Assembly: GCA_963971285.1 (NCBI GenBank)
Contig: OZ020244.1
Span: 806,001-870,000 of the forward strand
Origin: Astropecten irregularis
Taxonomy: Eukaryota; Echinodermata; Asteroidea; Paxillosida; Astropectinidae
DNA length: 64,000 nt
Reading direction: 5' to 3'
The translations under genes and the position numbers were made by a program. Shown piece by piece: positions 10,618 through 64,000 of the stretch (positions within the stretch are counted from its first letter, which is position 1; each line of letters opens with the position of its first letter). Under the pieces are notes generated by a model. It was not told where the DNA came from. It was given only the letters and a program-made list of their open reading frames with translations, and searched no databases.

Positions 10618-10650
10618 GTAATTCCATTCCATTTTAATTTCTGTTAAGAT

Positions 10651-23318: not shown

Positions 23319-23540
23319 AAATTTCCAAAAGCTTAGCTAGCTGACCTCAAAATAACTTGAACACTACATATGTATCTGAAGGCCTTTATAAAATGAGGCA
23401 TGACTTAGGATTTATTTTGTTACCGCTATTTGTGTCCTACATGAAATGACGGGCTTGAGATACATTGCAAAGCTGGCACCCATCTTCGGCTATATCCTGT
23501 GGCCCAATCCCACTGGGGTAAAATGGAACAATTCTCCAAC

Positions 23541-25898: not shown

Positions 25899-25941
25899 CA
25901 GAAGGCGGAAAAACAGGTGATTTTTTGGGATATTTTCGGCA

Positions 25942-31578: not shown

Positions 31579-31784
31579 ATAGGAAGCAGGACATATCAGC
31601 TGGTTGCAGAGAGTGGTATTCATCTGACTGTGTAATCTGGAGTTCAGTTTGGCTTTCAGTTTCTCTTCATCAACTCAACAAGGGTTGCAGCATCTTAACA
31701 ACCAGTGGAGATTAATAGGAATCTAAGTCACGATACAAGCCAGTCTACATTGCAGTCTCTTGACCTATCACTACAAGCATCAGA

Positions 31785-32765
31785 ATGAGAGTCACCATTG
31801 CAATCTTGTTGATGACTTTTATGGCAGGAAACTGTCAAGGGGAGTGTCTGACTGGGTTCACTCCCAATTATTATAAGGCCAACAATCGTGCTTTACTGCA
31901 TCATGTATATCAAGCAAAGACTACATCTTCTGCTGTGATATGTGGTATAGATTGCTCCATGGATCCTGAATGTGCATCATTCAACTATCATGAGAGTAAC
32001 CACTACTGCCAGATGAATAACATTAGTAGGAATATGAATACTTCTATCTTTGTTGAGCTGCAAGGAAGTGCCTACTATGATGATAACTATGAAACTTCAT
32101 TTCTCTCAATACCAGACACTGTAAAGTACCAAAGCTGCCTGATGTTGCTTCAAGCTGGTCACCATGACAATGGCATCTATACCATCTATCCTCTTGGAAT
32201 GAGTGATGGCATACAGGTATACTGCGACATGACAACTGCTGGTGGAGGCTGGATAGTATTTCAGAGGCGTCAAGATGGCTCTGTTGACTTTTATCGTGAC
32301 TGGGCTGACTACCAATCTGGATTTGGCAATCTATCGGGTGAGTTTTGGTTAGGAAATGACAAACTAAACAATCTGACAAAAAATTTAGCGTGGAGATTGC
32401 ATGTAGACCTAGGAGACTGGGAGGGTATGACTGCTTGGGCTGAGTACGATGATTTTAAGATTGTAGGTGAGAAATACACACTCAATATTGGTTCATATAA
32501 TGCTATGAGTACAGCAGGTGACTCATTGGAAAAGCATAATGCTCATTATTTCTCAACAAAGCAAAATGATTTTGATGCAGCCTTAGTTAACTGTGCACAG
32601 AAATGGGAAGGTGCATGGTGGTTCAATAAATGCTTTAACTCTCACCTCAATGGCAAGTACAACAATCATACCAATGAAGGCAGTTGGCAAGGTGTACAAT
32701 GGTATCACTGGAAGGGAGTGTATTCCCTGAAGGAATGCAGCATGAAAATCAGGGAATTCCTCTAA
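31785..32765 (+). CDS. secreted PAN/apple plus fibrinogen C-terminal domain protein (FReD lectin-like), 326 aa
   Basis: The protein starts with a signal peptide (about residues 1-19, hydrophobic AILLMTFMAG, likely cleavage near G19). A PAN/apple-like module follows (C21, C53, C57, C63, F66-N-Y68, C75), and then a full fibrinogen-related domain from C118 to the end. FReD hallmarks are C118/C147, GGGWIVFQRRQDGSVDFYR, GEFWLG, and the second cysteine pair C270/C283 around EGAWWFNKCFNSHLNG. FReD proteins bind acetylated or carbohydrate ligands and act in invertebrate innate recognition (family knowledge). The usual Asp-rich Ca-binding stretch is here FSTKQNDFD, less acidic than typical. N-glycosylation sequons are visible at N79, N85, N182 and N196. 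The ORF is a single uninterrupted exon. ATG 31785 begins the signal peptide and is preceded by stops. A separate upstream 5' exon is possible. Confidence 0.9.
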   Translation: MRVTIAILLMTFMAGNCQGECLTGFTPNYYKANNRALLHHVYQAKTTSSAVICGIDCSMDPECASFNYHESNHYCQMNNISRNMNTSIFVELQGSAYYDDNYETSFLSIPDTVKYQSCLMLLQAGHHDNGIYTIYPLGMSDGIQVYCDMTTAGGGWIVFQRRQDGSVDFYRDWADYQSGFGNLSGEFWLGNDKLNNLTKNLAWRLHVDLGDWEGMTAWAEYDDFKIVGEKYTLNIGSYNAMSTAGDSLEKHNAHYFSTKQNDFDAALVNCAQKWEGAWWFNKCFNSHLNGKYNNHTNEGSWQGVQWYHWKGVYSLKECSMKIREFL

Positions 32766-41667: not shown

Positions 41668-43164
41668 GTTTGATCTAAGCCAGATATGATCCCAACTGAT
41701 GCCAAGACCTCAGATACCAGCAACGTAACCAGTGATCTGGCTGTCCATCAGAAGAGACAGTTATCAGCATGGAGTCCAAACCAGTGAAACTGTGACTGTA
41801 TAACCTGCTAGCAAGCCAGCCAGCCAGCCCAACCAAAAACCAGGAAAGACAGTCACCAGCCATCCTTGGAGGCATCAAACCAGTGAGGCTATGACCATCC
41901 AACTAGGGAGCCAGCTAACCAGCCAACCCAGTCATCTAGTCCAACAAGGAAAGACAGTCACCAGCCATCCTTGGAGTCATCAAACCAGTAAGACTATGAC
42001 CATCCAACTAGGGAGCCAGCTAACCAGCCATCCCAGCCATCTACGGTAGTCTAACAAGGAAAGACAGTCACCAGCCATCCTTGGAGTCATCAAACCAGTA
42101 AGACTATGACCATCCAACTAGGGAGCCAGCTAACCAGCCAACCCAGTCATCTAGTCTAACAAGGAAAGACAGTCACCAGCCATCCTTGGAGTCATCAAAC
42201 CAGTAAGATTATGACCATCCTACTAGGGAGCCAGCTAACCAGCCATCCCAGCCATCTACGGTAGTCTAACAAGGAAAGACAGTCACCAGCCATCCTTGGA
42301 GTCATCAAACTAGTGAGACTGTGACCATCCAACTAGGGAGCCAACTAACCAGCCAGTCCAGTCATCTAGTCTAACAAGTAAAGACAGTCACCAGCCATCC
42401 TTGGAGTCATCAAACTAGTGAGACTGTGACCATCCAACTAGGGAGCCAACTAACCAGCCAACCCAGTCATAGTCTAACAAGGAAAGACAGTCACCAGCCA
42501 TCCTTGGAGTCATCAAACCAGTAAGATTATGACCATCCTACTAGGGAGCCAGCTAACCAGCCATCCCAGCCATCTACGGTAGTCTAACAAGGAAAGACAG
42601 TCACCAGCCATCCTTGGAGTCATCAAACTAGTGAGACTGTGACCATCCAACTAGGGAGCCAACTAACCAGCCAACCCAGTCATAGTCTAACAAGGAAAGA
42701 CAGTCACCAGCCATCCTTGGAGTCATCAAACCAGTAAGATTATGACCATCCAACTACGGAGCCAGCTAACCAGCCATCCCAGCCATCTACGGTAGTCTAA
42801 CAAGGAAAGACAGTCACCAGCCATCCTTGGAGTCATCAAACCAGTAAGACTATGACCATCCAACTAGGGAGCCAGCTAACCAGCCAGCCCAGTCATCTAG
42901 TCTAACAAGGAAAGACAGTCACCAGCCATCCTTGGAGTCATCAAACCAGTAAGACTATGACCATCCAACTAGGGAGCCAGCTAACCAGCCAGCCCAGCCA
43001 TCTAGTCTAACAAGGAAAGATAGTCACCAGCCATCCTTGGAGTCATGAGTCATCAAACCAGTGAGAGTGTGACTGTCCAACTAGCCAGCCTCTTGGGAAG
43101 CAGCAACAAGCAGTCACCCATCCATTTATCCAGCCAAGAAGATGCCACACTTGGATTGGGACAG
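41668..43164 (+). ncRNA. exon-like module 2, internally expanded by a 105-110 bp tandem array
   Basis: It begins after TTGTTGTCACAG (same acceptor context as module 3) and ends ACAG|GTAAAT. Between its conserved start (GTTTGATCT...GATGCCAAGACCTCAGAT) and end (AAGAAGATGCCACACTTGGA), about ten units of CTAACAAGGAAAGACAGTCA, CCAGCCATCCTTGGAGTCAT, CAAACCAGTAAGACTATGAC fill 41840-43040. Start points of AAGGAAAGACAG at 41946, 42056, 42161 and 42271 give steps of 110, 105 and 110, set by presence or absence of a CTACGGTAG insert. All frames contain stops. Confidence 0.45.
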
Positions 43165-44507: not shown

Positions 44508-45688
44508 ACACCCCTCAAATGAAGAACTACGAAATATCTTATTACCTACATGACCGAGTAGGCTTTGGTTTACCTCCATACATTAACATCTAGTTTTGTT
44601 TACTTCATATTTGTGTAATTGTATCAAACATTGTAACTTATACTGAAGAAACACTCAATGCTATGACAGCTGAATATTTGTTAAAATCACTGCTGAACAA
44701 TTTGGCTTTTGGAATTTTTTTTTCTGTAATAATATCTGAAATAGTCAAATTCTTGCCTGAGATGGATCTTTTCTTGGGTAAGATGGTCATGATATGAAGA
44801 GAAAGATACTTTGTAGACTCAATCTTTCCTGGTCCAAAACTATGTATGCATACAAACAAATACCATAACTCTCTACTGAATCTTACAAATGCAGTGTAAA
44901 GTGGTCATGTGCATTGTGTGTTTCTGACAGCTAGGGTTTATGTTGGGATGGGATGGATTCATGATTTTTTTTACCAGTTTTTTCGCGCTCAAATTATAAC
45001 CCTGCCTTGGTCTGCTGGTGGCAAATCAATTTCAATTCTTTATTACATGTATGTTTCACACCTTGTGGCCCAGTTACAAAAAACATTTCCCCTGGTTGGG
45101 GATGTCTAAAAATGTTTAATATTTTTGCTTGTTACTTTGTATTTTTGCTCATCTTAGCGCATTTTCCCCTGGGTGGGACATTTTTTTTCACAATGATCAG
45201 GCTTTTCCTCTAAAACATTCTCAGCGTGGCATTTATGATTCCCATATTCTGCCTTCAAATTATTTCACGCTTTTGTGCCATCAATTTGTCATATGCTTCA
45301 CGTTCCTCTTTTCCTTCACAAATGAATCCATCCCTTCTCATTGTAAAATATTCAAACTTGCATGTGGTTCAGGATTGGTACTCCACGTTGGTATCACCGT
45401 TTAGAAATGTAGAAAAAATCAATTATCTTGACTTTCTGTCATGAAATTCTGTCGGAGCTATTTTGGAAGACATTTCTATCATTTTATCTCCAGTTCTAAA
45501 GCATCAGTCTTAGTCATTTTGGAATTGTTTTGAAATGGCAGCATCAAAATAGAAACCATTTTCCTCTTCATTAGCATAATACATGTAATTAGACAGTATT
45601 GAGATAGTGCACTTCACTCATAATCCTTTCTGCATATTTTTGCATACATTTCTCATCCTCTGCACAATCTCAGACTCTTACCAATATT

Positions 45689-45715
45689 GTATCCCTGGGT
45701 GGGACTTGAAACAAA
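45689..45715 (-). other. T-arm-like remnant inside the palindrome arm
   Basis: CCCTGGGTGGGACTTGAAAC resembles the minus-strand T-arm motifs at 44183-44507 with a few changes. It is mirrored in the right arm at about 62958-62985. Confidence 0.3.
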
Positions 45716-46324
45716 CCTTTTGATGGCCAAATTCCATCTCCATTCATGCCATTATGTTAAAATGTGATTCACAATCCTGAACCATATCTTTGCTGAAGAA
45801 TCTTACATTCTTTTTACATGTTTTAGGGAACACTCATTTGAAGTGACATGGTTGTAGTTGTACATGTCTGATGTCAAAAATGTGGGTTAACAAAAGTTTC
45901 AAATTCATCTAAATTCTTCTTAAATTCTGGCATTTGTGTCATTTTGGGGTTGAGGTACACATGTACAACAGTATTTTTCCATTTTTATTCAATTTGGGGT
46001 TTGCATTTTTCTTTTCTTCATTCTTGTCTTCTTGCTTTTTTTGGGGGGATGATATTTTTTTCTCTCAAAATTGATTTCCAGACTAACTCCATCATTTCAA
46101 GTGAATGCACTCTAAAATTGAATTAATTGCCTTAATTAATTTATTGCCTTTTTCTTAAGAATGTTTTCTATATGTAGGTGTGTGAGTTTCTCCAACAGAC
46201 AGATTGATCATGCGCTGCTATGAAACAAAAACAAGCTAAATATGTATGTACACATACAAGAAAATGCATGAAAATTCTTGCAGAAGCACTGAAAAAGGCA
46301 TGTACTTGCATGTGACACACAAAT

Positions 46325-46680
46325 ATTGGCCAAATGCCTTGAAATTGGTGTCTTAAACTTCTTCAAAACATCATGACAAAATTGATTCATGCAAAGAAAT
46401 CTAATGTTCTCTTTAAAACGAGAGATGCCAATTTTGTTTTTTTTCAAAATTGTATAAACTTTTCTTCCCATGTACATTGTCACATACATGTAATTATCTT
46501 TCAATTCAAAACTTTTTCAAAACATCATAACAACATTGATTTGTAAAAACAAATCTCAAATTTTCTCTGCAAAACTAGAGAAGCAAAAAGCAACTTTTTT
46601 TTATTTTGACTGATTTGACAGCACAAAATGTTTCAAAATTTTCTACAAATTTCCTTCCAACGTAGATTGTCACATATTAA
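46325..46680. repeat. two diverged direct copies (~175 bp) inside the arm
   Basis: The word order CAAAACTA/CGAGAGA..GCA..., CAAAATTGTATAAACTTT or TTTCTACAAATTT, CTTCC, then GTACATTGTCACAT or GTAGATTGTCACAT appears twice (about 46345-46500 and 46520-46680). It is mirrored in the right arm at about 61955-62290. Non-coding. Confidence 0.5.
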
Positions 46681-46828
46681 GGAGCTGATTTAAATTCTGT
46701 TTGTTGGAGTAATTCTCACATTGTTATTTAAATTTGTTATAATCTGTTGTTAAAGTGTTTAAATCCTGTACAGATCAAATACACATAGGAAAGAAGCTCA
46801 GACGAGCAAAACGCAAGTGCCGGTTGGT

Positions 46829-46842
46829 GCGCCCTCTGCTGT
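46829..46842 (-). promoter_or_regulatory. CTCF-like motif, left arm outer
   Basis: On the minus strand ACAGCAGAGGGCGC fits the CTCF core CCASYAGRKGGCRS at 13 of 14 positions. It lies at the terminus of the nested element. Binding is not shown by sequence alone. Confidence 0.4.
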
Positions 46843-49408
46843 CTAGGATGTGGAGCAACTTTAATGACCCAGGTGCATTGGTTGATATGCGTCAGCTTGA
46901 GTGAAACCTGTCTTCAGTGTTGCTGGTATTCTACTCTGTAAGTGTTCTGCCTCACATGATTTGACAAGCTCATACCCAAATTCTGCATGCGGCTAAAACT
47001 AGAAGAAAGGAATTGATTGTTGTACACTAAGATGCTGATAGCGCTTGTATGATTGGTGCGAAGGACAGAGGACCCTTTTTTTCGCACAGTTTTTTTCGCA
47101 CTGATACTTTTGTTATCCTAAGTTGGTACCCTTCATCTTACTGTTCCTGTGTAACCAGGTCTCTTTTTAGGCCGGTCATGATGACCAACCCTTTTGCATA
47201 GGACATCTGCTTCTGATCTGAGGGGGCTCTTGACCTGATAGATGATGGTGACCTCTACTCAGTTGTTGATGTGATGATTAGAGAAACAGTTTTTTGGCAT
47301 TGCTGGCTTACTTCTTTACAGTTATCAGGTTTTGACCATTGGTTTCACTTGTGTAGTAGAAAGTAAGGTTGTGTAGGAAGGCAAGAGGGACCACATAAAA
47401 ATTTAGCAAGCTGTGGTGCTATGATAAAATAATACCATAATTTTCTTCAGTGCAGACACATTTAATATCATAACCATAGGACAGAAATAAATAAGGCTGA
47501 AATAACCAATATATAACCACAGCAAGTTATCTTCATATTAACTTAACTCTAAAAATACTGACAAAATCGGTACAATAATTGAGATTGAAAACATACAACA
47601 ACTAAAATAGAATTATCAAAGAATAATCATAATAATGAAATAATTAGGAATAAACCAATATAGGGACATTTCCAGAAAAAATTTGCCTTAATATACAAAA
47701 TCACACAGATGATGGATAATGTTGCAACAAAAACAAATAATTATAAAAATCAAACTGAAGGAGTGATACATTAACTTCAACCTAAATATTACTTGTGTAT
47801 TGAGATTTTAATGATAATTTGATTCTTATAAGACTGGTGGAACACAAGAATCTTTTCACCCTTAAAACCAAAAATAAGAATCACTGAACAATTTCCAGTA
47901 ATGACATGTAAATAATATTTAATGACATGCATCAAGGCTTTATATATTCAGTGGTCCTCTCAACATTTTGACTAGTGTGCACTTTTTTATATCAGAATAT
48001 TTATCAAGTTTATTTACACAGATCTATAATAAATAAGAAAATCACTATAAAAATACAAAAATAGAATGTCCTTGTAATCTAGACTTTGATAGAGAAGGCA
48101 ATAGGTTTAGGAGTCCTAAACCTATGACATAAACCATCTATTACATTAGAAGTCAATTCACTTATTTATTCCCACATAGGAAAACAAATTGACAAAGTCA
48201 GTCAAATTAATGAGATTAAAAACAATCAAGAACTAAATGAAAACATATTAAAAAAAAACTCAGATCCCTGTTCAATTCAATTACGGTTTATTAAGAATAC
48301 GAAATAAAACGTCCGAAGACTAAAAATATTAGGTTTACAATTACAAATCAACATTTCTACATGTAGTTAAAAACTGTTTAGTTAAAATATAAATAAACTT
48401 AGACACAAACAGATTGAACAATAAACATGAATTTAACAATTGGAATTAAACCAATATGGGGTATTTTCAGAAGCCCTAATAGGCTTGTATAAAAACCATT
48501 GCCAAAAACATAGCCTAGGATCTATATTGCAATAGAAACAAATAATAACTAAACATTTTAAGTGTTCATCCCGTGGATGAACACAAAGCTGTTCCGATTT
48601 GTCTTAAGTTGCTTATTTGGCTGATAACAGAGTGATTGTCATGTTATTAACTAAAAATCTGATGATGTCATGATGACTTCATCATTAAAGAGATAGATTA
48701 TAAATAACATAGAGATCATACCCACCAAGTTTCAAGGCATTTAGGGATAAAATAAGAATTGTTTTTTTGATGACGTCAATGGTGATGTCATAATAATTTT
48801 CCTGGCAGCATGCATATCTACAGCAATCTGTAGCAATGCTATTGCCAAAAGAATAAATTGCTAAGAAAATTAACTAATTAAAAATTCAAATGACTGTCAC
48901 ATGCGTAATGAATTACCAAATAAAACTAAATCAGTTTCCACTGCAGATTTACCTGATAAGCATTCATATAATTTAATTTTCAAGCTCTTCAAATAAAGCT
49001 AAGAATAAGAAGAAGATGCAACACAAATGACAACATAAATGTTAAGTTAGACGGGGGATAATTAATAATGAAAAATAATAATAACAATAAAAATCCCAAG
49101 CTTTTTAAAACCCGTTCCAACCTGGAACGTATCGGAACAGCAAATAAACATTTCAGCACTAGGATAGTTAAGCGTTAAATTAAGGTATTAAGTGATTAGG
49201 GTAGATAATATTAATAGGGTAGCATTCTTCTGTTACACAAGTGAAACCAAGAAATCCATGAGGACATGATTGTTTCATTGAAGCTCATAAAAGTACATAA
49301 TTTTAGGGGGTAATTTTTGTTTCAGAATACATAAACTACAAAACTTGGGAGCAAAAAAGTTAATCCAAAATTTGAAGTAAGCTGCATGTTGAAATGTTGT
49401 TTCTCTGG

Positions 49409-49720
49409 TCAGCACATCATCATCTGGGTTGAAGTTGTTGTCATTTTGAAGGTCAAGGACTCAATTAGTGATGGAGTAGAAGTGTCCAATGAATCGGTCT
49501 TTATTTTTCCTTTTTTTACCCCAAAGTTCAGCATCAAAATGTCTCCTAAGAACATATAGCGGCTTGGTTGCCCGAACAGGGGGTGAAGTCTGAAGTACAC
49601 CCATGCAGGTCTATTAAGATTTAAGTGTACAACAATGAATCCTTTCTGAGCTTTGTTCAGGCCTTTGCTAGTCTTTTCAATGCGTGGCATTTGCATGCCA
49701 ACATTAGCGCGCATAAGCAA
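49409..49720 (-). other. arm-conserved small ORF, 103 codons (left copy)
   Basis: This ORF and the mirrored 58832-59143 encode 103-residue products differing at only four positions, with the same start and stop. Motif-like segments are KGFIVVHLNLNRPAWVYFR and PSRYMFLGDILMLNFGVKKG. I recognise no family. The equivalent part of the opposite TIR of the same nested element is not open, so this may be chance preservation in a young duplication. Confidence 0.25.
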
Positions 49721-49850
49721 TGAGCTTGTTGAAATGTGTGTTGCAGATCACTTGTAGAGCAGAATACTAGTAAGACTAAGTCAGGTTTCAACTCAAGAGG
49801 GCGCTTTATCAGCCGATGTACTTGGGTCATTAAGTTGCTTCACATTCTAG

Positions 49851-49864
49851 ACAGCAGAGGGCGC
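49851..49864 (+). promoter_or_regulatory. CTCF-like motif, left arm inner
   Basis: ACAGCAGAGGGCGC, facing opposite to the copy at 46829, at the other end of the nested element. Another AGAGGGCGC lies 55 bp away (about 49796). Confidence 0.4.
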
Positions 49865-50316
49865 ACCAGCCGGCACTTGCAATTAGAAAAAAAAAATAAT
49901 AAAAAATTCAAATGACACAACAGATAGTGATCTCCTCTTGCATTTTTATTTGTCAATGACTGAACTACCCCCTCTATACAAAATGTACGTGTGGTTAACC
50001 AAGAGTACACTTAACTGGTTTTAAAGGGACTGCATTGCAAACAGAATCTCTGAAAATGGACAACAGTAAGAGGGCGCCATTTCAGCAAACTTTCATCCAG
50101 CATCAACAGCGCCCTCTCACTATGGACCATATTTCAAAGATGCTTATTGAAACAGTTCCAACAATACAAGCCTCTTGGCAATTTCCATGTGACCTCTATA
50201 CACATTAACTTGACACTGCACAGAGGTCATATGTAAATAACCTAAAGGTTGTATGACTGGGACACATTTCAACTTGCAATGCAGACCCTTTGCAAAGATG
50301 CCATTTCTAACCTAAC

Positions 50317-50595
50317 CTATGACCTTATTTTTCTTATTACAGCGCAACTAATGCAACAGAAATATGCGATGGGCGGCAAGTTTATAGGTTCGTTTGAATG
50401 AGAGAACTTGCAAAATAGCAGGACAGATGCAAAGAATATTGACTTTTGAATGTTGACGTGCATATTTAAGTTTCTTTCTTTCCTTTTTGTATTTGCAGGA
50501 ATGTGCTTTTGGATGCAACATGATGATTCTAATGTGGATGAAGTCAAGCAATACGCAATACTGATGTTGGAGCGCAGAAAATTTGGAAAGGTCAA
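50317..50595 (-). other. arm-conserved small ORF, 92 codons (left copy)
   Basis: The mirrored 57995-58234 encodes the last 79 residues with few changes, including SIFFASVLLFCKFSHSNEPI. The stretch around FFASVLLFC is hydrophobic. No family is recognised. The start codon differs between copies, which weakens a coding interpretation. Confidence 0.2.
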
Positions 50596-51438
50596 AGAAT
50601 AATGTACGGCACCCTTGAAACCAGTAGTAACCTGCTACCTTAAGTGAGTCAGATTCTAATTAACACTTCAGAATTTGGTTTTCTTTTATGCTGAACCACA
50701 ATGAAAAAAGGTGAATTAAAATTGAAAAATGTACGCGAAAATAGAAAATGTTACAAATTTTTTTAGGATAGTTTTCACTCTTGCAATGTGTAAAATTCAG
50801 GTAAAAAAATTGGTTTGAAGTGGATTTGAAAAACAAACAGTTGAAACCAAAGAAATTTCAGATGAGAGTTGTTTACTATTTTTTTTAAAATCATTGGCAC
50901 TATGCATGCACATTGTACACATTAAAACCAGAAATGAAAAAATTCAAAGAAAGGTTGCCAATTTTAGCACAGGTAATATACGCGGAAATAACTTTTACAT
51001 TTTTTTTGATAATTTTTGGCTCTGCAATTTGTAAAATTTCTGGTAAAAGAATTTTTTTGAAATGAATTTGAAAAACAAAAGTTGAGGATATCAAAGAAAT
51101 TTCAGATGAGAGTTGTTAACTATTTTTAAAAGAATGTTGGCGCTACGCATGCACTTCATATGAATTCAAACCAGAAATGATAAAATGCCCAGAAAGGTTG
51201 ACAATTTTAGCACGGGTAATACTGTATATGAATTCGGTAAAAAAAAAATCTTGGTGCTGCACATTATGCAAATTAAAACCAGAAATGACAAAAATGCCAA
51301 AGGATTATCAGTTTTAGAGCAGATTATTTGAATTTGCTAACTGACTCAGTTAAAGGTAACTAGGTTACATGTACCTATGGTTAACCACTTAAAGTATGGC
51401 GACAATTTGCCAGCTGATAACGTAACTCATGTTAAGCG

Positions 51439-51807
51439 TTGAGTGATTTTAAAAAAAAATCCAAAATGTTTCCGAAATATCCTTATTTGGTGAAAATTAC
51501 TTTAGCATGCAGCTTAATACTTGCTGGACAATTTTGTGCTTTTTTGACACAATTCCATCTCAGAATCAACTGTCTTATTTTTGACTTTGTTCAATTTTTG
51601 ATTTTTGGAGATGTACAATCTCGGCCTTCATTAACAAAAACTGATTTTGTTCAGTACATGGAACCTACAATGGGCCATTTATTCAGAGAAATATCAAGTG
51701 GTTTTTATGAAGCATTTTTGTTTGTAATTCCAGAAATCTTTCAAGAAAATGCATTTCACTTTAATATTCATTTTTGTGACAGCTTAAATCATTACTTGAA
51801 AAGATAG
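51439..51807 (+). other. arm-conserved small ORF, 122 codons (left copy)
   Basis: The mirrored 56993-57256 (minus) keeps 87 of these codons with about four amino-acid changes, then differs upstream by a shift in the A-run. The composition is hydrophobic and aromatic-rich (LRINCLIFDFVQFLIFGDVQ). It runs toward the palindrome centre, opposite to the other paired frames. No known domain. Confidence 0.2.
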
Positions 51808-52225
51808 GTAACAAGGTCAAGGATATCAACTGGCAAATTACCAACCATTCACATCGTTTCAATGCAATGCCAAAAAAGACTGGAATCTGGTCAATAACGC
51901 GCAATTCTAATATTTCATTTGTGCTCAATTTGTAAGCTTTGCTTAATGCATAGGAAGTGATCTTAAAATTGTCATTTTTGCTCTCAGATTGAAACAGATT
52001 TGCATAAAATCAACAAAGTCCTGCTTTCATTTTATATTCGCCAGTGAAAACTAAGTATTTCAGGTCCATTTTGTTTGGTAGTGACAAGAATTTTCATAAT
52101 TTCAATCAATATTAAAAAAAGCTCATTTGAAAAGAAAATTTGGCCAAAAATTCTTTGCCGCAGCTATTTGAAAGTACACATGACCAGATACCAGAGTTTT
52201 TTGGTTCAAATAAAGCACACAACAA

Positions 52226-52246
52226 ATGAGTGCACCAGGCACTCAT
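52226..52246. other. stem-loop in the left arm
   Basis: ATGAGTGC-ACCAG-GCACTCAT: an 8 bp stem with a 5 nt loop, kept unchanged (as its complement) at 56549-56569. It lies just beyond the end of the 49-codon frame and before a CTTTATTTG word, so it may mark a transcript 3' end. Confidence 0.4.
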
Positions 52247-52254
52247 ATCTTTAA

Positions 52255-52404
52255 TCACTTCCATGTACAAAAACTGTTAACAAGTCCATCTAACTGTGAA
52301 ACACGGTTTGCAAAATTCAGTCCTTGAAGTTGCATCTTGGCATCGTTAAGTTTCTTCCAAGGCAGGAGTCTCTGGTTCAGACGGAGGCAAACATATTTCT
52401 TGAA
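52255..52404 (-). other. arm-conserved 49-codon open frame (left copy)
   Basis: The frame reads KKYVCLRLNQRLLPWKKLND, then AKMQLQGLNFANRVSQLDGL, ending FCTWK-stop. The mirrored 56391-56540 has the same length and stop with two amino-acid changes and one silent change. It is preceded about 230 bp earlier by an acceptor-like TTGTTCAG before GTCTTGAAAGGCTG, so it might be terminal-exon coding sequence. No family is recognised. Confidence 0.25.
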
Positions 52405-53734
52405 TCACGTTCAGTGCTCAACAAATTCAGAATTCAAACAGTGTAATATGCGTCTGCCATGTGGCAAGCCTTATAAGGGAAATTTCTTCTAAATTTAGAC
52501 GTCAAATTGAGATCTTGTAGCTGAAGAAATGTTGGAATATCCAAACAAATGCCGACACTTCACGTCTGATGTCATTAAGGTAGATTTACACAGATGTCAT
52601 CTCTTGCGTCTTCGAAGCCAAACCGTCACAGCCTTTCAAGACCTGAACAAAAACAAAAAAAGAGCAAAATGTGATTTTTCAGAGACCACATAATTATATT
52701 ATGCTGCTTTGAAATTGAAATGAACAATAAGCAGAATGCAAAATCTGGTAATCCTTCACAAATGCTGAGATTGAAATACTAGGCACTCCTTTCTTTTTAT
52801 TCCTTAAAACCTGGTACATGTAGTTCTCATGTTTTTAAAGAGTGGAAGAGTTCCACGGATGACAATCATCACTTTGTTAGTGACAGGCAAAGTCAGGAGT
52901 TTTAAGTCTAAAAGGTAATATCATACTTTGGTTTTTGTCCAAGAAATACAGATTCATGGGCAAAAATATCGAGGAAAATACAGTAACAGTCATCTGTGAA
53001 AATGTCAGTCCCATACGGTGCCAACTTTAAAAAAAAAAACAGTGAAAAACGGCAACAGTGTTTCTGAAGTCTTTTCTCTGTTTTTTATCTTTAAAAGATG
53101 AAAAATCATTATGGTCAATAGTTTTACTCTTTTCTGGAAAAATACAGCATTTCAGGCAAAAATATTTGAACGGTATGTTTCTACAATCACCATCTTTATA
53201 CCCTGTAAGTTAGGTAAATCTGTGAAGATTTCTTTTTGGTATGCTACCAAAGTATGATACTACCTTTAAAAGATGAAAGGTTTCAAAATATTTTGTAACA
53301 TTTTAAAATAATTGTTTGAGTAAGTATATACATGTACAGAGATTGGTGGTTTCTGCAACTTGTAGGAACCAAAACTTAGTGGTTAATTTATGAAAGTCTT
53401 TCCCTTTACAGACTGTTTCAAATGTTGTATGTGATTTTTGGCAGGTACAGTATGGCAGTTGGACATTTTAGAAGTTTTCAGACAATAAAGAATATCCTAT
53501 TGAAAAATGACCGGAGACTACGACTTAAATTTTGTGACTTCTTTGTTATAATTGTGGCTCATGTTTTGTTTTATAAGGAGTTTGATTACATTTATCGTAA
53601 CGTTATTAACATTATAATGTTATATTGCGTATGGTTGAATATATATTAGGCTTAAAAAACGGCATGGTACCACACCCTAAAATCAAACAACTTTATTTGC
53701 GGCTCTCGGAAATAATGATTTTTAGTAATAAAAC

Positions 53735-53947
53735 CTACCATTTTTGGACTTGACAGTTTCTTAAAAGACAACCCAAGCCAAGAGCCTTCTCAATTTTACG
53801 GGAACCTTCCATTTGAACGGATTTTTGAGAAACATGGATGAAGAAATTGTAGTGATTTCTCTTGTGGTGCCGACATGATGTTACCTGGACGAAACGCAGG
53901 CGTGAAATGCCGCGTCTTCGGTCCCACGTGATATAAAAACCATTCAT
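53735..53947 (-). other. arm-conserved 70-codon frame next to the centre (left copy)
   Basis: The frame starts MNGFYITWDRRRGISRLRFV and ends QVQKW, with a GTAGGT donor-like sequence at its end. The mirrored 54844-55056 keeps length and frame with about eight changes. Together they would be the first exons of a divergently transcribed gene pair reading out from the palindrome centre. An internal CAG|GTAACA could also act as a donor. Function unknown. Confidence 0.3.
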
Positions 53948-54000
53948 AAATCACTACACACAATAAAATAGCGCCCTCTACTTATTGTTTCAGGCAAAAT

Positions 54001-54790
54001 ACAATAAGCCTGGAGCGACGTCACACTGTTGCTAGTCTCTTTTCAAGTCGCTACTTACCAGGCAGGACCTAAAAAGACCGTACTTTACGGTAAATTTCAC
54101 CTCGGTCGGGATAGTAAAGACTTGAAAAAAGACTAGAAATAGATAGTCGGTACCTAGTCTCTTTTCAAGTCTTAACTATATTGGGCATGATGAAATGGAC
54201 CGCAATTAACGGTCTTTTCAGCCGCGCCATAGGTAGTTCGTACTTGAAACAAGACTAGACACCGCCCAAGTGTTCCTTGTCTATTTTCTGTGTCAGACTA
54301 AGCAGAAAATGATTAGCAGGCAATATAAGTCTTATTTTGAAGTATCTCAAACTAGATAGCAACTAAAAAGACCGCAAATTAACGGTCTTTCATGATGCGC
54401 GAGTAGAAAGACAGACTTGAAGAAAGACTAAACAAAGCCTTTGTTTTGATGAAGGCATTAACTGGAGTAAAGAGGGCGCTATGTAACTCTTGCTAGTCTT
54501 CTTTGAAGTCCGCGCCTACCCTAGAGCAGTTTAAATGACCGTATTCTACGGTATTTCATGTTGCGCGCGTGGAAAGACAGACTTGAAGAAAGACTAAACA
54601 AAGCATTTGTTTAAAGGTGTTAACTGGAGTATAGAGGGCGCTATGTAACTCTTGCTAGTCTTCTTTCAAGTCCGCGATTTCCCTAGAGCGGCTTAAATGA
54701 CCGTAATCTACGGTCTTTTTAGCCGCTCCCTGGTGAGTAGCGACTTGAAACAAGACTAGCAACAGTGTGACGTCGCTCCAGGCGTATTGT
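54001..54790. repeat. palindrome centre: alternating ~18 bp motifs and CCGT/ACGG dyads
   Basis: CTAGTCT-(T/C)-(T/C)TTT-(C/G)AAGTC occurs forward at 54032, 54154, 54493 and 54655 and, as GACTTGAA...GACTA(G), reversed at 54119, 54241 (TACTTGAA), 54414, 54580 and 54742. A decayed forward copy lies at about 54328, so orientation alternates throughout. Between them GACCG(T/C)-N(5-6)-ACGG dyads sit at 54076, 54198, 54370, 54537 and 54699. Two full ~165 bp units (54370-54536 and 54537-54698) are direct repeats. The outermost parts are also arm-homologous. No ORF. Confidence 0.9.
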
Positions 54791-54843
54791 ATTTTGTCTG
54801 AAACAATAAGTAGAGGGCGCTATTTTATTGTGTGTGGTGATTT

Positions 54844-55056
54844 ATGAATGGATTTTATATCACGTGGGACCGAAGACGCGGCATTTCACGCCTGCGTTTC
54901 GTCCAGGTAACATCATGTCGGCACCACAAGAGAAATCACTACAATTTCTTCATCCATATTTTTCAAAAATTCGTTAAAATGGAAGGTTCCCGTCAAAGTG
55001 AGAAGGCTCTTGGTTTGGTTTGTCTTTTAAGAAACTCTCAAGTCCAAAAATGGTAG
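54844..55056 (+). other. arm-conserved 70-codon frame next to the centre (right copy)
   Basis: Partner of 53735-53947, reading away from the centre. It follows a shared TAGAGGGCGCTATTTTATTG block by about 30 bp. The differences cluster in the second half (residues about 39-65). Confidence 0.3.
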
Positions 55057-56390
55057 GTTTTATTACTAAAATCATTCATTATTGCCGAGAGCCGCAATTT
55101 CGTTTTAGGGTGTGGCACCATGCCGTTTTTCAGGCTCGAATATTCAACCATATGCTTACAATATAACATATGTAAATAACGTTATGGTAGATGTAAAAAA
55201 AACTCCTTATAAAACAAAATAAGAGCCACAATTATAACAAAGAAGTCACAAAATGTAAGACGTTGTCTCCGGTCATTTTTCAAAAGGATATTCTTTATTT
55301 TCTGAAATACTTCTCAAATTTCCAACTTCCATACTGTACCTGCCAAAAATCACATACAACATTTGAAACCGTCTGTAAAGGGAAAGACTCTCATAAATTA
55401 ACCTCTAAGTTTCGGTTCCTACAAGTTGCAGAAACCACCAATCTCTGTACATGTATATACTTGCTCAAACAAATATTTTAAAATGTTACAAAATATTTTG
55501 AAACCTTTCATCTTTTAAAGGTAGTATCATACTTTGGTAGCATACCGAAAAAGAAATCTTCACAGATTTAACAAACTTACAGGGAATACAGGGTATAAAG
55601 GTGGTGATGGTAGAAACATACCGTTAAAATATTTTTGCCCGAAAAGCAGTATTTTTCCAGAAAAGAGGAAAACCATTGACCAAAATGATGTTTCATCTTA
55701 TAAAGATCAAACAAAAAAAAGAGGAAAGACTTCAGAAACACTGTGGCCGTTTTTTACCGTTTTTTTTCATAAAGTTGGCACCATATGAGACTGACATTTT
55801 CACAGATGACTGTTACTGTAATTTTCTCGATATTTTTGCCCATGAATCTGTAATTGTTTGACAACAACCAAAGTATGATATTACCTTTTAGACTTATAAC
55901 TCCTGACTTTGCCTGTCACTAACAAAGTGATGATTGTCATCCGTGGAACTCTTCCACTCTTTAAGAACATGAGAACTACCAGGTTTTTAACGAATAAACA
56001 GAAAGGAGTGCCTAGTATTTCAATCTCAGCATTTGTGAAGGATTACCAGATTTTGCATTCTGCTTATTGTTAATTTCAATTTCAAAGCAGCATAATATAA
56101 TTATGTTATCTCTGAAAAATCACATTTTGCTTTTTTTTTCGTTTTTATTCAGGTCTTGAAAGGCTGAGACGGTTTGGCTTCGAAGACGCAAGAGATGACA
56201 TCCGTGTAAATCTACCTTAATGACATCAGACGTGAAGTGTCGGCATTTGTTTGGATATTCCAACATTTCTTCACCTACAAGATCCCAATTTGACGTCTAA
56301 ATTTAGAAGAAATTTCCCAAATAAGGCTTGCCACATGGCAGACGCATATTACACTGTTTGAATTCTGAATTTGTTGAGCACTGAACGTGA

Positions 56391-56540
56391 TTCAAGAAAT
56401 ATTTCTGCCTCCGTCTTAACCAGAGACTCCTGCCTTGGAAGAAACTTAACGATGCCAAGATGCAACTTCAAGGACTGAATTTTGCAAACTGTGTTTCACA
56501 GTTAGATGGACTTGTTAACAGTTTTTGTACATGGAAGTGA
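56391..56540 (+). other. arm-conserved 49-codon open frame (right copy)
   Basis: Partner of 52255-52404. It is followed 8 bp downstream by the conserved stem-loop and then by TGTGCTTTATTTGAACC. Confidence 0.25.
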
Positions 56541-56548
56541 TTAAAGAT

Positions 56549-56569
56549 ATGAGTGCCTGGTGCACTCAT
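56549..56569. other. stem-loop in the right arm
   Basis: ATGAGTGC-CTGGT-GCACTCAT, the exact mirror of 52226-52246. Confidence 0.4.
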
Positions 56570-56992
56570 TTGTTGTGTGCTTTATTTGAACCAAACAACT
56601 CTGGTATCTGGTCATGTGTACTTTCAAATAGCTGCGGCAAAGAATTTTTGGCCAAATTTTCTTTTCAACTGAGCTTTGTTGTTTTTTAATTGATTAAAAT
56701 AAGGAAATTCTTGTCACTACTAAACAAAATGGACCCGAAATACTTAAAGTTTTCACTGGCGAATATAAAATGAAAGCAGGACTTTGTTGATTGTATGCAA
56801 ATCTGTTTCAATCTGAGAGCAAAAATGACAATTTTAAGATCACTTCATATGCATTAAGCAAAGCTTACAAATTGAGCACAAATGAAATATTAGAATTGCG
56901 CGTTATTGACCAGATTCCAGTCTTTTTTGGCATTGCATTGAAACGATGTGAATGGTTGGTAATTTGCCAGTTGATATCCTTGACCTTGTTAC

Positions 56993-57256
56993 CTATCTTT
57001 TCAAGTACTGATTTAAGCTGTCACAAAAATGAATATTAAAGTGAAATGCATTTTCTTGAAAGATTTCTGGAATTACAAACAAAAATGCTTTATAAAAACC
57101 ACTTGATTTTTCTCTGAATAAATGGCCCATTGTAGGTTCCATGTACTGAACAAAATCAGTTTTTGTTAACGAAGGCCGAGATTGTACATCTCCAAAAATC
57201 AAAAATTGAACAAAGTCAAAAATTAGACAGTTGATTCTGAGATGGAATTGTGTCAA
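56993..57256 (-). other. arm-conserved small ORF, 87 codons (right copy)
   Basis: Partner of 51439-51807, lacking its first 35 codons because of a stop or shift upstream. Differences such as EISSGFYEAF versus EKSSGFYKAF are single-base. Confidence 0.2.
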
Positions 57257-57994
57257 AAAAGCACAAAATTGTCCGGCAAGTATTTAGCTGCATGTTAAAG
57301 TAATTTTCACCAAATAAGGATATTTGGGAAACATTTTGGAATTTTTTTTTAAATCACTCAACGCTTAACATGAGTTACGTTATCAGCTGGCAAATTGTCG
57401 CCATACTTTAAGTGGTTAACCATAGGTACATGTAACCTGTTACCTTTAACTGAGTCAGTTAGCAAATTCAAATAATCTGCTCTAAAACTGATAATCCTTT
57501 GGCATTTTTGTCATTTGCATAATGTGCAGCACCAAGATTTTTTTTTTACCGAATTCATATACAGTATTACCCGTGCTAAAATTGTCAACCTTTCTGGGCA
57601 TTTTATCATTTCTGGTTTTAATGTGTACAATGTGCATGCGTAGCGCCAATGATTTAAAAAAAAAATAGTAAACAACTCTCATCCTGAATTTCTTTGGTTT
57701 CACCTGTTTGTTTTTCAAATCCACTTCAAACCAATTTTTTTTACCTGAATTTTTACACATTGCAAGAGTGAAAACTATCCTAAAAACATTTCTAACATTT
57801 TCTATTTTCGCGTACATTTTTCAATTTTAATTCACCTTTTTTCATTGTTGTTCAGCATAAAAGAAAACCAAATTCTGAAATGTTAATTAGAATCTGACTC
57901 ACTTAAGGTAGCAGGTTACTACTGGTTTCAAGGGTGCCGTACATTATTCTTTGACCTTTCCAAATTTTCTGCGCTCCAACATCAGTATTGCGTA

Positions 57995-58234
57995 TTGCTT
58001 GACTCCATCCACATTAGAATCATCATGTTGCATCCAAAAGCACATTCCTGCAAATACAAAAAGGAATACAAAGAAAGAAACTTAAATATGCGCGTCAACA
58101 TTCAAAAGTCAATATTCTTTGCATCTGTTCTGCTATTTTGCAAGTTCTCTCATTCAAACGAACCTATAAACTTGCCGCCCATCGCATATTTCTGTTGCAT
58201 TAGTTGCGCTGTAATAAGAAAAATAAGGTCATAG
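57995..58234 (+). other. arm-conserved small ORF, 79 codons (right copy)
   Basis: Partner of 50317-50595. It contains a small AATACAAAGAA length difference in the Lys-rich segment that keeps the frame. No recognised family. Confidence 0.2.
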
Positions 58235-58687
58235 GTTAGGTTAGAAATGGCATCTTTGCAAAGGGTCTGCATTGCAAGTTGAAATGTGTCCCAGTCATAC
58301 AACCTTTAGGTTATTTACATATGACCTCTGTGCAGTGTCAGGTTAATGTGTATAGAGGTCACATGGAAATTGCCAAGAGGCTTGTATTGTTGGAACTGTT
58401 TCAATAAGCATCTTTGAAATATGGTCCATAGTGAGAGGGCGCTGTTGATGCTGGATGAAAGTTTGCTGAAATGGCGCCCTGCTTACTGTTGTCCATTTTC
58501 AGAGATTCTGTTTGCAATGCAGTCCCTTTAAAACCAGTTAAGTGTACTCTTGGTTAACCACACGTATGTGTTGTATAGAGGGGGTAGTTCAGCCATTGAC
58601 AAATAAAAATGCAAGAGGAGATCACTATCTGTTGTGTCATTTGAATTTTTTATTATTTTTTTTTTCTAATTGCAAGTGCCGGCTGGT

Positions 58688-58701
58688 GCGCCCTCTGCTG
58701 T
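58688..58701 (-). promoter_or_regulatory. CTCF-like motif, right arm inner
   Basis: Minus-strand ACAGCAGAGGGCGC; mirror of 49851-49864. Confidence 0.4.
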
Positions 58702-58831
58702 CTAGAATGTGAAGCAACTTAATGACCCAAGTACATCGGCTGATAAAGCGCCCTCTTGAGTTGAAACCTGACTTAGTCTTACTAGTATTCTGCTCTACAA
58801 GTGATCTGCAACACACATTTCAACAAGCTCA

Positions 58832-59143
58832 TTGCTTATGCGCGCTATTGTTGGCATGCAAATGCCACGCATTGAAAAGACTAGCAAAGGTCTGAACCAA
58901 GCTCAGAAAGGATTCATTGTTGTACACTTAAATCTTAATAGACCTGCATGGGTGTACTTCAGACCTCACCCCCTGTTCGGGCAACCAAGCCGCTATATGT
59001 TCTTAGGAGACATTTTGATGCTGAACTTTGGGGTAAAAAAAGGAAAAATAAAGACCGATTCATTGGACACTTCTACTTCATCACTAATTGAGTCCTTGAC
59101 CTTCAAAATGACAACAACTTCAACCCAGATGATGATGTGCTGA
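58832..59143 (+). other. arm-conserved small ORF, 103 codons (right copy)
   Basis: Partner of 49409-49720 (N7/I, K/Q, L/P and P/S changes only). It runs outward from the palindrome centre. Family unknown. Confidence 0.25.
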
Positions 59144-61788
59144 CCAGAGAAACAACATTTCAACATGCAGCTTACTTCAAATTTTGGATTATCTTTTTTG
59201 CTCCCAAATTTGGTAGTTTATGTATTCTGAAACAAAAATTACCCCCTAAAATTATGTACTTTTATGAGCTTCAATGAAACAATCATGTCCTCATGGATTT
59301 CTTGGTTTCACTTGTGTAACAGAAGAATGCTACCCTATTAATATTATCTACCCTAATCACTTAATACCTTAATTTAACGCTTAACTATCCTAGTGCTGAA
59401 ATGTTTATTTGCTGTTCCGATACGGTCCAGGTTGGAACGGGTTTTAAAAAGCTTGGGATTTTTATTGTTATTATTATTTTTCATTATTAATTATCACCCG
59501 TCTAACTTAACATTTATGTTGTAATGTTTGTTGCATCTTCTTCTTATTCTTAGCTTTATTTGAAGAGCTTGAAAATTAAATTATATGAATGCTTATCAGG
59601 TAAATCTGCAATGGAAACTGATTTAGTTTTATTTGGTAATTCATTACGCATGTGACAGTCATTTGAATTTTTAATTAGTTAATTTTCTTATCAATTTATT
59701 CTTTTGGCAATAGCATTGCTACAGATTGCTGTAGATATGCATGCTGCCAGGAAAATTATTATGACATCACCATGACATCATAAAAAAAACAATTCTTATT
59801 TTATCCCTAAATGCCTTGAAACTTGGTGGTTATGATCTCTATGTTATTTATAATCTATTTATTTTATGATGAAGTCATCATGACATCATCGGATTTTTAG
59901 TTAATAATATGACAATCACTGCTTATGCTTAGTGTAGAATCGGTGCTTACAGAAATTGACAATTCTCTGTTATCAGCCAAATAAGCAACTTAAGACAAAT
60001 CGGAACAGCTTTGTGTTCATCCACAGGATGAACACTTAAAATGTCTAGTTATTATTTGTTTCTATTGCAATATAGATCCTCTATATTTTTGTCAATGGTT
60101 TTGATACAAGCCTATTAGGACTTCTGAAAATACCCCATATTGGTTTAATTCCAATTGTTAAATTCATGTTTATTGTTCAATCTGTTTGTGTGTAAGTTTA
60201 TTTATATTTTAACTAAACAGTTTTTAACTACATGTAGAAATGTTGATTTGTAATTGTAAACCTAATATTTTTAGTCTTTGGACGTTTTATTTCGTATTCT
60301 TAATAAACCGTCATTGAATTGAATTGAACAGGGATCTGAGTATTTTTTATATTGTTTTCATTTAGTTCTTGATTGTTTTTAATCTCATTAATTTGACTGA
60401 CTTTACCTATGTGGGAATAAATACTGAAGTGAACTAAAGTGAATTGACTTCTAGTGTAGATAGATGGTTTATGTCATAGGTTTAGGACTCCTAAACCTAT
60501 TGCCTTCTCTTTCACAATCTAGATTACAAAAGCTTCCTATTTAAGCATATTTTAAAAGTGATTTACTGATTTATTATAGATATGTTTAAATAAACCTGAT
60601 ATAAAATGGTGAAAAACTAGTCCAAACGTTGAAAGGACCACTGGTTACAAAAAGCCTTGAGGAATGTCTTTAAAGATTATTTACATGTCATTACTGGAAA
60701 TTGTCCAGTGCGTTTTATTTTTAGGTGAAAATGTTTCTTGTATTCTGTCTGCCTTATAAGAATTGAATTATCATTAAAATCTCTATTACACAACTAATAT
60801 TTAGCTTGAAGTTAATGTATGATTCCTTAGATTTGATTTTTATTATTATTTGTTTCAACATTTGTTTTGCAACATTATCCATATCATTTTTATGATTTTG
60901 TCTATGGCTGATTTTTATGGAAATGCCCCCATATTGGTTTGTTCCTAATTATTTCGTAGTAATCTGATTATTCTTTGATAATTTTATTTGGTTTATGGAT
61001 GTTTTCAATCTCAATTATTGTACTAACAGACTGACCTTGTCAATATTTTTTAGGGTTAAGTTATTATGGAGATAACTTGCTGTGATTATTTATTGGTTAT
61101 TTCAGCCATTTTTTTAATTGCTGTCCTATGGTTAAATCACTGTGGTCTTCTTAGGAAGTTTTATATTAAATGTTTCTGAACTGAAGAAATTAATGTTATC
61201 ATTTTATCACAGCACCACAGCTTGCTAAATTTGTATGTGTTCCCTCTGGCCTTCCTACACAACCTTACTTTCTACTACACAAGTGAAACCAATGGTCAAA
61301 ACCTGAGAACTGTAACAAAGTAAACCAGCAATGCCAAAAAACTGTTTCTCTAATCATCGCATCAACAACTGAGTAGAGGTCACCATCATCTATCAGGTCA
61401 AGAGCCCCCTCAGATCAGAAGCAGATGTCCTATGCAAAAGGGTTGGTCATCATGACCGGCCTGAAAAGAGACCTGGTTACACAGGAACAGTAAGATGAAG
61501 GGTACCAACTTAGGATAACAAAAGTATCAGTGCAAAAAAAACTGTGCGAAAAAAAGGGTCCTCTGTCCTTCGCACCAATCATACAAGCGCTATCAGCATC
61601 TTAGTGTACAACAATCAATTCCTTTCTTCTAGTTTTAGCCGCAAGCAGAATTTGGGTATGAGCTTGTCAAATCATGTGAGGCAGAACACTTACAGAGTAG
61701 AATACCAGCAACACTGAAGACAGGTTTCACTCAAGCTGACGCATATCAACCAATGCACCTGGGTCATTAAAGTTACTCCACATCCTAG

Positions 61789-61802
61789 ACAGCAGAGGGC
61801 GC
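61789..61802 (+). promoter_or_regulatory. CTCF-like motif, right arm outer
   Basis: ACAGCAGAGGGCGC; mirror of 46829-46842. The four copies form two convergent/divergent pairs placed symmetrically about 54395. Confidence 0.4.
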
Positions 61803-64000
61803 ACCAACTGGCACTTGCATTTTGCTCGTCTGAGCTTCTTTCCTATGTGTATTTGATCTGTACAGGATTTAAACACTTTAACAACAGATTATAACAGATT
61901 TAAATAACAATGGGATAATAACTCCAACAAACAGAATCTAAATCAGTTCCTTAATGTGTGACAATCTACATTGGAAGGACATTTTTAGAAAATTTTGAAA
62001 CATTTTGTGCTGTCAAATCAGTCAAAATATAAAAAAGTTGCTTTTTGCTTCTCTAGTTTTGCAGAGAAAATTTGAGATTTGTTTTTATAAATCAATGTTG
62101 TTATGATGTTTTGAAAAAGTTTTGAATTGAAAGATAATTATATGTATGTGACAATGTACATGGGAAGAAAAGTTTATACAATTTTGAAAAAAAAAGTTTT
62201 TGGCATCTCTAGTTTTAAAGAGAACATTAGATTTCTTTGCATGAATCAATTTTGTCATGATGTTTTGAAGAAGTTTAAGACACCAATTTCAAGGCATTTG
62301 GACAATATTTCTGTATAAAACAATGGCATTGAGTGTGTCACATGCATACATACATGTACAGTGTACATGCCTTTTTCAGTGCTTCTGCAAGAATTTTCAT
62401 GCATTTTCTTGTATGTGTACATACAAATTTAGCTTGTTTTTGTTGCATAGCAGCGCATGATCAATCTGTCTGTTGGAGAAACTCACACACCTACATACAG
62501 AAAACATTCTTAAGAAAAAGGCAATAAATTAATTAAGGCAATTAATTCAATTTTAGAGTGCATTCACTTGAAATGATGGGGTTAGTCACTTCGTCTGGAA
62601 ATCAATTTTGAGAAAAAAAATCATCCCCCCCCAAAAAAAAGCAAGAAGACAAAAATAAAGAAAAAAAAAATGCAAACCCCAAATTGAATAAAAATGGAAA
62701 AAAAAATGTTGTATCTAAACCCAAAAATGACATAAATGCCAGAATTGAAAAAGAATTTAGATGAATTTGAAACTTTTGTTAACCCACATTTTTGACATCA
62801 GACATGTACAACTACAACCCCTGTCACTTCAAATGAATGTTCCCTAAAACATGTAAAAACAAAGTAAGATTCTTCAGCAAAGATATGGTTCAGGATTGTG
62901 AATCACATTCTAACATAATGGCATGAATGGAGATGGAATTTGGCCATCAAAAGGTTTGTTTCAAGTCCCACCCAGGGATACAATTGGTAAGAATCTGAGA
63001 TTGTGCAGAGGATGAGAAACTTATGCAAAAATATGCGTAAAGGATTATGAGTGAAGTGCACTATCTCAATACTGTCTAATTACATGTATTATGATAATGA
63101 AGAGGAAAATGGTTTCTATTTTGATGCTGCCATTTCAAAACAATTCCTAAATGACTAAGATTGATGCTTTAGAACTGGAGATAAAATGATAGAAATGTCT
63201 TCCAAAATAGCTCCGACAGAATTTCATGACAGAAAGTCAAGATAATTGATTTTTTCTACATTTCTAAACGGTGATACCAACGTGGAGTACCAATCCTGAA
63301 CCACATGCAAGTTTGAATATTTTACAATGAGAAGGGATGGATTCATTTGTGAAGGAAAAGAGGAATGTGAAGCGTATGACAAATTGATGGCACAAAAGCG
63401 GGAAATAATTTGAAGGCAGAATCTGGGAATCATAAATGCCACACTGAGAATGTTTCAGAGGAAAAGTTTGATCATTGTGAAAAACATTGTCCCACCCAGG
63501 GGAAAAGATGCTAAAAAATGAGCAAAAATACAAAGTAACGTGCAAAACTAATGAAAATTTTTAGACATCCCCAACCAGGGGAAATGTTTTTTGTAACAGG
63601 GCCACAAGGTGTGAAACATACAAAAAATTGATTTGCCACCAACAGAAAAAGGCAGTGTTATAATTTGAGCGCGAAAAAACTGGTAAAATAAATCATGAAT
63701 CCATCCCAACTTGATATAAACCCTAGCTGTCAGAAACACACAATGCACATGACCACTTTACACTGCATTTGTAAGGTTCAGTAGAGAGTTATTGGTATTT
63801 GTTTGTATGCATACATAGTTTTGGACCAGAAAAGACTGAGTCTACAAAGTATCTTTCTCTTCATATCATGACCATCTTACCCAAGAAAAGATCCATCTCA
63901 GGCAAGAATTTGACTATTTCAGATATTATTACATAAAAACAAAATTCCAAAAGCCAAATTGTTCAGCAATGATTTAAACAAATATTCAGCTGTCATAGCA

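Follow-up and report, generated by a model that had tools for sequence, protein, structure and literature searches.

The window analysed here, a stretch of 64,000 bases without N, contains a large imperfect palindrome whose arms turn around an array of five short palindromic units. This structure is probably a real inverted segmental duplication, formed by fold-back priming or by replicative template switching between units of the array, and the junction created in this event would still be readable in the last unit, which is a hybrid.

Two long inverted arms

Comparison of the window with itself by blastn revealed two collinear inverted matches, one pairing 44659-50978 with 64000-57565 (92.2% over 6500 columns, 9481 bits) and the other pairing 50975-54145 with 57818-54646 (91.7% over 3215 columns, 4551 bits). 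The best inverted match in 20 first-order Markov copies of 44659-64000 reached 41 bits, and the arms are thus long copies in opposite orientation far above the chance level, as expected of an inverted segmental duplication. In a MAFFT global alignment, 44659-54091 corresponds to the reverse complement of 64000-54700 with 395 substitutions in 9092 aligned columns (4.3%, or 95.7% identity over aligned columns) plus indels, where the divergence was counted on ungapped columns and only as far as the homology runs (54091 on the left and 54700 on the right). The two arms are as follows.

44659..54091, + strand: left arm, defined by the blastn self-comparison, the MAFFT alignment and the matches at the hinge; outer end undefined, as the partner runs into the window end
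54700..64000, - strand: right arm, the reverse complement of the left arm, on the same basis; cut by the window end

Position 44659 has the final base of the window as its partner, so the outer ends of the arms lie beyond view. The initial annotation had stated that the landmarks of 44658-54100 reappear in inverted form and that the arms measure at least 9.3 kb; the first statement is borne out by the two collinear matches and the low chance maximum, and the second by a right arm that reaches the window end. No match to either arm was found in the other 44.6 kb of the window at E 1e-3. The whole global alignment, hinge included, contains 58 indel events, 20 of which are 1 bp long, with eight of these 20 located in homopolymers of at least four bases. 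The left arm contains a local repeat of two copies at 50728-51221, and the largest indel in the arms (243 bp) corresponds to roughly one of them. Each arm also carries a repeat of approximately 165 bp twice in opposite orientation with 80-82% identity, at 46813-46973 (inverse at 49720-49880) and, in the mirror, at 58668-58832 and 61658-61822.

Uneven divergence along the arms

Change-point segmentation divided the aligned arms into four blocks, listed here in left-arm coordinates.

44659-47420: divergence block 1, 4.05%
47421-48090, + strand: divergence block 2, 15.17%; partner 61210-60511; sharp edges
48091-52061, + strand: divergence block 3, 1.84%; partner 60510-56737
52062-54091: divergence block 4, 5.87%

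The number of differences per 250-column window has a variance-to-mean ratio of 7.7, and the longest identical run between the arms spans 289 columns, whereas 500 random placements gave no run longer than 261. Block 2 aligns well throughout by eye, and its edges are steep near 47380 and 48124 when followed in 60-column steps. Its transition/transversion ratio (0.81) falls within the range of the remaining blocks (0.66-0.95), which have a higher GC content (33-36%, against 26% in block 2). The divergence of a few percent given in the initial annotation describes the mean of 4.3% and neither the block at 15.2% (47421-48090 of the left arm) nor the one at 1.8% (48091-52061). Plotted along the aligned arms, as had been proposed there, the differences form four blocks. 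Judged from the alignment, this patchiness fits partial gene conversion between the arms, and it would arise equally from recombining alleles or ordinary allelic diversity.

Five palindromic units form the hinge

The hinge between the arms consists of five near-palindromic units of approximately 105 bp, U1 to U5, the last three of which are overlaid by a tandem repeat.

54032..54136: U1; its left half is part of the left arm, and the homology of the arms ends at its core near 54091; hairpin fold z -4.1
54154..54258: U2; hairpin fold z -5.4
54326..54431: U3; left end degenerate, folded as 54328-54431, z -2.3; only its right end is among the matches to the end pattern
54493..54597: U4; hairpin fold z -3.5
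54655..54759: U5, a hybrid; left half U4-like, right half similar to the reverse complement of the left half of U1 and continuous with the right arm; z -9.6
54382..54714, + strand: tandem repeat of about two copies of 162-166 bp, running nearly from core to core (U3-U4-U5)

The ends of the units resemble CTAGTCT(Y)TTTTCAAGTC...GACTTGAAA(M)AAGACTAG and their core resembles GACCGTAATTTACGGTC. In global alignments, a unit is 0.61-0.78 identical to its own reverse complement, compared with a mean of 0.50 and a maximum of 0.58 in 200 shuffled units. When the units were folded as DNA, U1, U2, U4, and U5 beat all 200 shuffles and U3 was equalled by one of 200. A search of the window with the 16-base pattern of the unit ends, allowing up to three mismatches, returned 15 matches against 3.2 expected, a count that none of 100 shuffles reached. 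All nine matches with zero or one mismatch fall in the hinge (54034-54757), and of the other six, four form mirrored pairs within the arms and two lie outside. The two tandem copies, 54382-54552 and 54548-54714, match each other directly at 88%. Between the cores of U1 and U5 lies a loop of approximately 610 bp, which is asymmetric and not itself palindromic. With these five palindromic units, an inverted repeat is present at the turning point, as a fold-back or template-switch origin would require. The gapped pattern of the hinge unit had no exact match among viral contigs, in a collection that may omit records from the same or a near genome.

A hybrid unit at the turning point

The gapless match between the arms (192 bp, 93%) ends at 54091 in the core of U1 and at 54700 in the core of U5. 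The direct match from the side of U4 (88%) ends at 54714, so that it overlaps the start of the right arm at 54700 by 15 bp.

54700..54714: switch point, the overlap of the U4-side tandem copy and the right arm; best split at 54708

Measured over 25 bases at a time, the mirrored arm is matched at 0.80-0.84 in 54720-54740 and at 0.92-1.00 from 54750 on, and identity to the U4 copy over the same stretch to the right of the U5 core drops to 0.52-0.73. Comparison of all ten half-units (45 pairs) gave U3.R-U4.R (0.88), U4.L-U5.L (0.87), and U1.L-U5.R (0.85) as the top pairs, followed by U2.R-U5.R (0.81) and U5.L-U5.R (0.78). The pair U1.R-U5.L scored 0.72, whereas a plain mirror would make that pair high. 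The right half of U5 was assigned to U1 because it is continuous with 9.3 kb of arm; its similarity to U1 is only 0.85, with U2.R close behind.

The informative sites in U5, scored for U4 against the reverse complement of U1, split from 16:5 to 3:15 at 54708 (p 3.3e-4, unadjusted, for the best of many split points). By itself this split is weak, as it ranks ninth among 120 unit triplets. The strongest split, U4 between U3 and U5 (3.8e-7), is due to the tandem repeat. U4 and other units are thus also hybrid, indicating that hybrid units are general in the array. Taken with the 15-bp overlap and the matrix of half-units, and with its own split ranked only ninth of the 120 triplets, U5 has the composition that a template switch within a repeat would leave behind.

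A proposed origin

All units are imperfectly self-complementary, which would allow a 3' end in U5 to anneal to U1. We propose that a broken or stalled 3' end in U5 would have paired with U1 on the same strand or, alternatively, that a replication fork would have switched template between U5 and U1. Synthesis would then have run back through the left half of U1 and the flanking DNA, yielding a product made of the left arm, U1 to U5, and the mirror arm, in which the array from the U1 core to the U5 core stays as the loop and U5 is a hybrid. The arms would later have diverged unevenly through arm-to-arm conversion, ordinary allelic exchange, or both. Provided that the assembly reflects a real molecule, the best fit among the origins listed in the initial annotation is an inverted segmental duplication; the maintenance by gene conversion suggested there is compatible with the uneven divergence, which falls short of proving it.

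The same reasoning can be extended, with considerably less confidence, to the repeat family as a whole. It is conceivable, and in our estimate improbable, that the 105-bp palindromic family serves as a recurrent turning point genome-wide, with cores that are favoured sites of breakage or template switching, and that growth of the array through 162-166-bp core-to-core copies and the large inverted duplication share one process. If so, other inverted duplications, or small inversions, are expected to have further copies of the family at their centres.

Could the palindrome be an assembly artefact?

We also considered that the arms might be alleles of a single locus that were joined in head-to-head orientation during assembly, which we regard as less likely than a real duplication but not negligible. 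The level of divergence and the indels look allelic. A mean of 4% is within the allelic range of very heterozygous animals, as heterozygosity in amphioxus is 3.2-4.2% according to PMC12500494, and even the 15% block is not beyond alleles, as two haplotype clones at one amphioxus locus are described in PMC2632668 with 87.7% of aligned bases identical. Because amphioxus alleles reach such values, arm divergence does not separate a duplication from alleles. A plain join of alleles requires a self-complementary seam that is homologous throughout; here the homology stops inside U1 and U5 and the loop of approximately 610 bp is asymmetric, which makes a simple haplotype misjoin unlikely.

The likeliest route to an artefact would start from an inversion of the palindromic array in the heterozygous state, so that the assembly graph permits a path, legal yet false, from the left arm over the array into the mirrored left arm. 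Such an inversion between palindromic units would by itself yield the hybrid U5, and a join through it would mimic everything seen. The haplotype misjoin named as a caveat in the initial annotation is thus less likely in its simple head-to-head form than as a join through the inverted array. This route requires reads shorter than approximately 620 bp. Minisatellites of 4.3, 2.1, and 1.1 kb were assembled in the same window without N, an indication that the underlying reads or clones were long enough to span the 620-bp hinge as well. Chimeras made from the same molecule, through missed adapters or amplification fold-backs, are a further class of artefact, in which the arms would come out nearly identical. 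Such a chimera is unlikely because the arms differ by 4.3% and include a 15% block.

Content of the arms

An inverted duplication of this size could alternatively be a mobile element with giant inverted arms, of the foldback type or with very long terminal inverted repeats, or a pair of divergent genes, and the content of the arms bears on both. Against Pfam (E up to 0.05), the 76 stop-free left-arm ORFs of at least 45 aa matched five families, each in one ORF, with a best E of 7.6e-4. When ten left-arm ORFs were rescanned for scores, three of the five families, including AAT, were below the Pfam cut-off, a finding that covers these three families, the remaining two being PF25144 and PF17094. 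The AAT-domain match (46917-47117, minus strand, E 7.6e-4) scored 19.7 bits against a cut-off of 23.2 for the family and was therefore taken as a chance match; its frame stays open in both arms, with one synonymous and one non-synonymous difference. A search with Rfam at E up to 1 produced four matches, all under the gathering score and three of them on the palindromic DNA of the hinge, and an RNA gene in the arms was rejected on these scores.

The longest stop-to-stop ORF in 43000-64000 is 123 aa and the sole one of at least 120 aa. For the comparison with the mirror arm, we used the 73 ORFs of at least 45 aa that lie entirely inside 44659-54091. Of these, 43 are interrupted by a frameshift or a stop codon in the mirror copy (8 of 10 among those of at least 80 aa). 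The remaining 30 are open in both arms, and none reaches 0.05 in a one-sided comparison for lower non-synonymous change, the best p being 0.076 (unadjusted). This value belongs to the frame 45214-45441 (plus strand), in which 3 of 51 synonymous sites and 2 of 177 non-synonymous sites are changed and to which no Pfam family matched at E 0.05. By these sequence comparisons the left arm appears to be without credible coding sequence, and small exons may still hide at such divergence.

We consider a mobile element very unlikely. Its arms would be inverted about a short loop, as they are here, and the hinge units do resemble short inverted-repeat elements; against it, none of the five families matched among the 76 left-arm ORFs is a transposase, in agreement with the absence of a transposase reported initially, the arms are not made of tandem subrepeats, with the exception of a single two-copy repeat and a few partial ones of short length, and neither arm recurs in the 44.6 kb outside. 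The foldback-type mobile unit suggested in the initial annotation thus finds no support in what the arms contain, as judged from the portion inside the window; the ends of such an element and any target-site duplications would fall beyond it. Two divergent genes held alike by gene conversion, likewise suggested there, are the least probable origin of all, since the features in their favour (a 3.7-kb block at only 1.8% divergence, the weak AAT match in a doubly open frame, and the open frame at 45214-45441) are set against the breakage of most ORFs in the other arm and the lack of any significantly constrained one.

Comparison with known systems

According to PMC10622511, inverted repeats close to a double-strand break in yeast can prime fold-back synthesis that, through a hairpin-capped intermediate, yields inverted duplications. 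The present structure resembles those described in that account in having a short inverted repeat at its centre, a switch of the copy within that repeat, and a remaining loop. The yeast repeats described there are natural ones of 3-15 bp or artificial palindromes of at least 40 bp, whereas here an array of five 105-bp palindromes is found with a loop of approximately 610 bp and arms that have since diverged. Origin-dependent models are represented by ODIRA, in which template switching at short inverted repeats yields palindromic junctions (PMC10766186), as in the reading preferred here. In the description given there, an inverted triplication and a further junction are expected under ODIRA, whereas one junction is visible within our window.

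Long inverted arms around a spacer, with possible conversion from arm to arm, are also features of mammalian sex-chromosome palindromes as portrayed in PMC3723533, PMC8981503, and PMC5997626. Kilobase conversion tracts have been inferred for palindrome P6 (PMC3723533), and arm identity is given as >99% for sex-chromosome palindromes (PMC8981503) and >99.9% for the human Y (PMC3723533). The arms of mouse sex-chromosome palindromes are described as harbouring testis-expressed gene families. Unlike these palindromes, the arms studied here are 95.7% identical, below the >99% mark, and contain no genes as far as tested. A likeness by description only is offered by the amphioxus VCBP haplotypes (PMC2632668), where extended inverted repeats are reported in a very heterozygous invertebrate chordate. 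A whole-word literature query pairing short inverted-repeat elements with the breakpoints of inverted duplications returned no match, a result that carries little weight.

A fold-back inverted duplication is a known kind of rearrangement, and what distinguishes this one is an unusually well preserved junction. If real, it would be a natural, diverged inverted duplication in an animal, probably an invertebrate, with a birth junction readable to approximately 15 bp. The fold-back model, which was developed in yeast and has been applied to cancer, would thereby be linked to germline evolution at short palindromic repeats, and it could be tested whether other palindromes have such repeats at their centres, as would be predicted. 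If an artefact, it would serve as a useful warning of how palindromic arrays can make one haplotype appear as the mirror image of the other.

Other features of the window

Outside the palindrome, a stop-free frame of 1763 aa occupies 25921-31209 (+ strand), with approximately 60% GC compared with 29-48% in its neighbours. Its domains are an integrase H2C2 domain, rve, p58_C, and a weak C2H2 finger, and no reverse-transcriptase family is among the five listed at E 0.01. It looks like a gypsy-type gag-integrase without reverse transcriptase, either non-autonomous or host-adopted, where gag is our reading of a CCHC-like motif that has no Pfam match. Approximately 0.55 kb downstream, 31764-32762 (+ strand) encodes in a single frame an animal-type, ficolin/tenascin-like protein of 333 aa with a PAN and a fibrinogen C-terminal domain.

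Large gapless minisatellites with units of 21, 55, 57, and 105/215 bp are located at 10649-14918, 16671-18735, 23539-24679, and 41838-43046. A further tandem array with a 109-bp unit (19229-20127) has an inverse likeness of 79% to 23118-23202 within 23118-23250. This matching segment overlaps a tRNA-Thr (GGT)-like gene, and the 109-bp array may be a tRNA-derived repeat.
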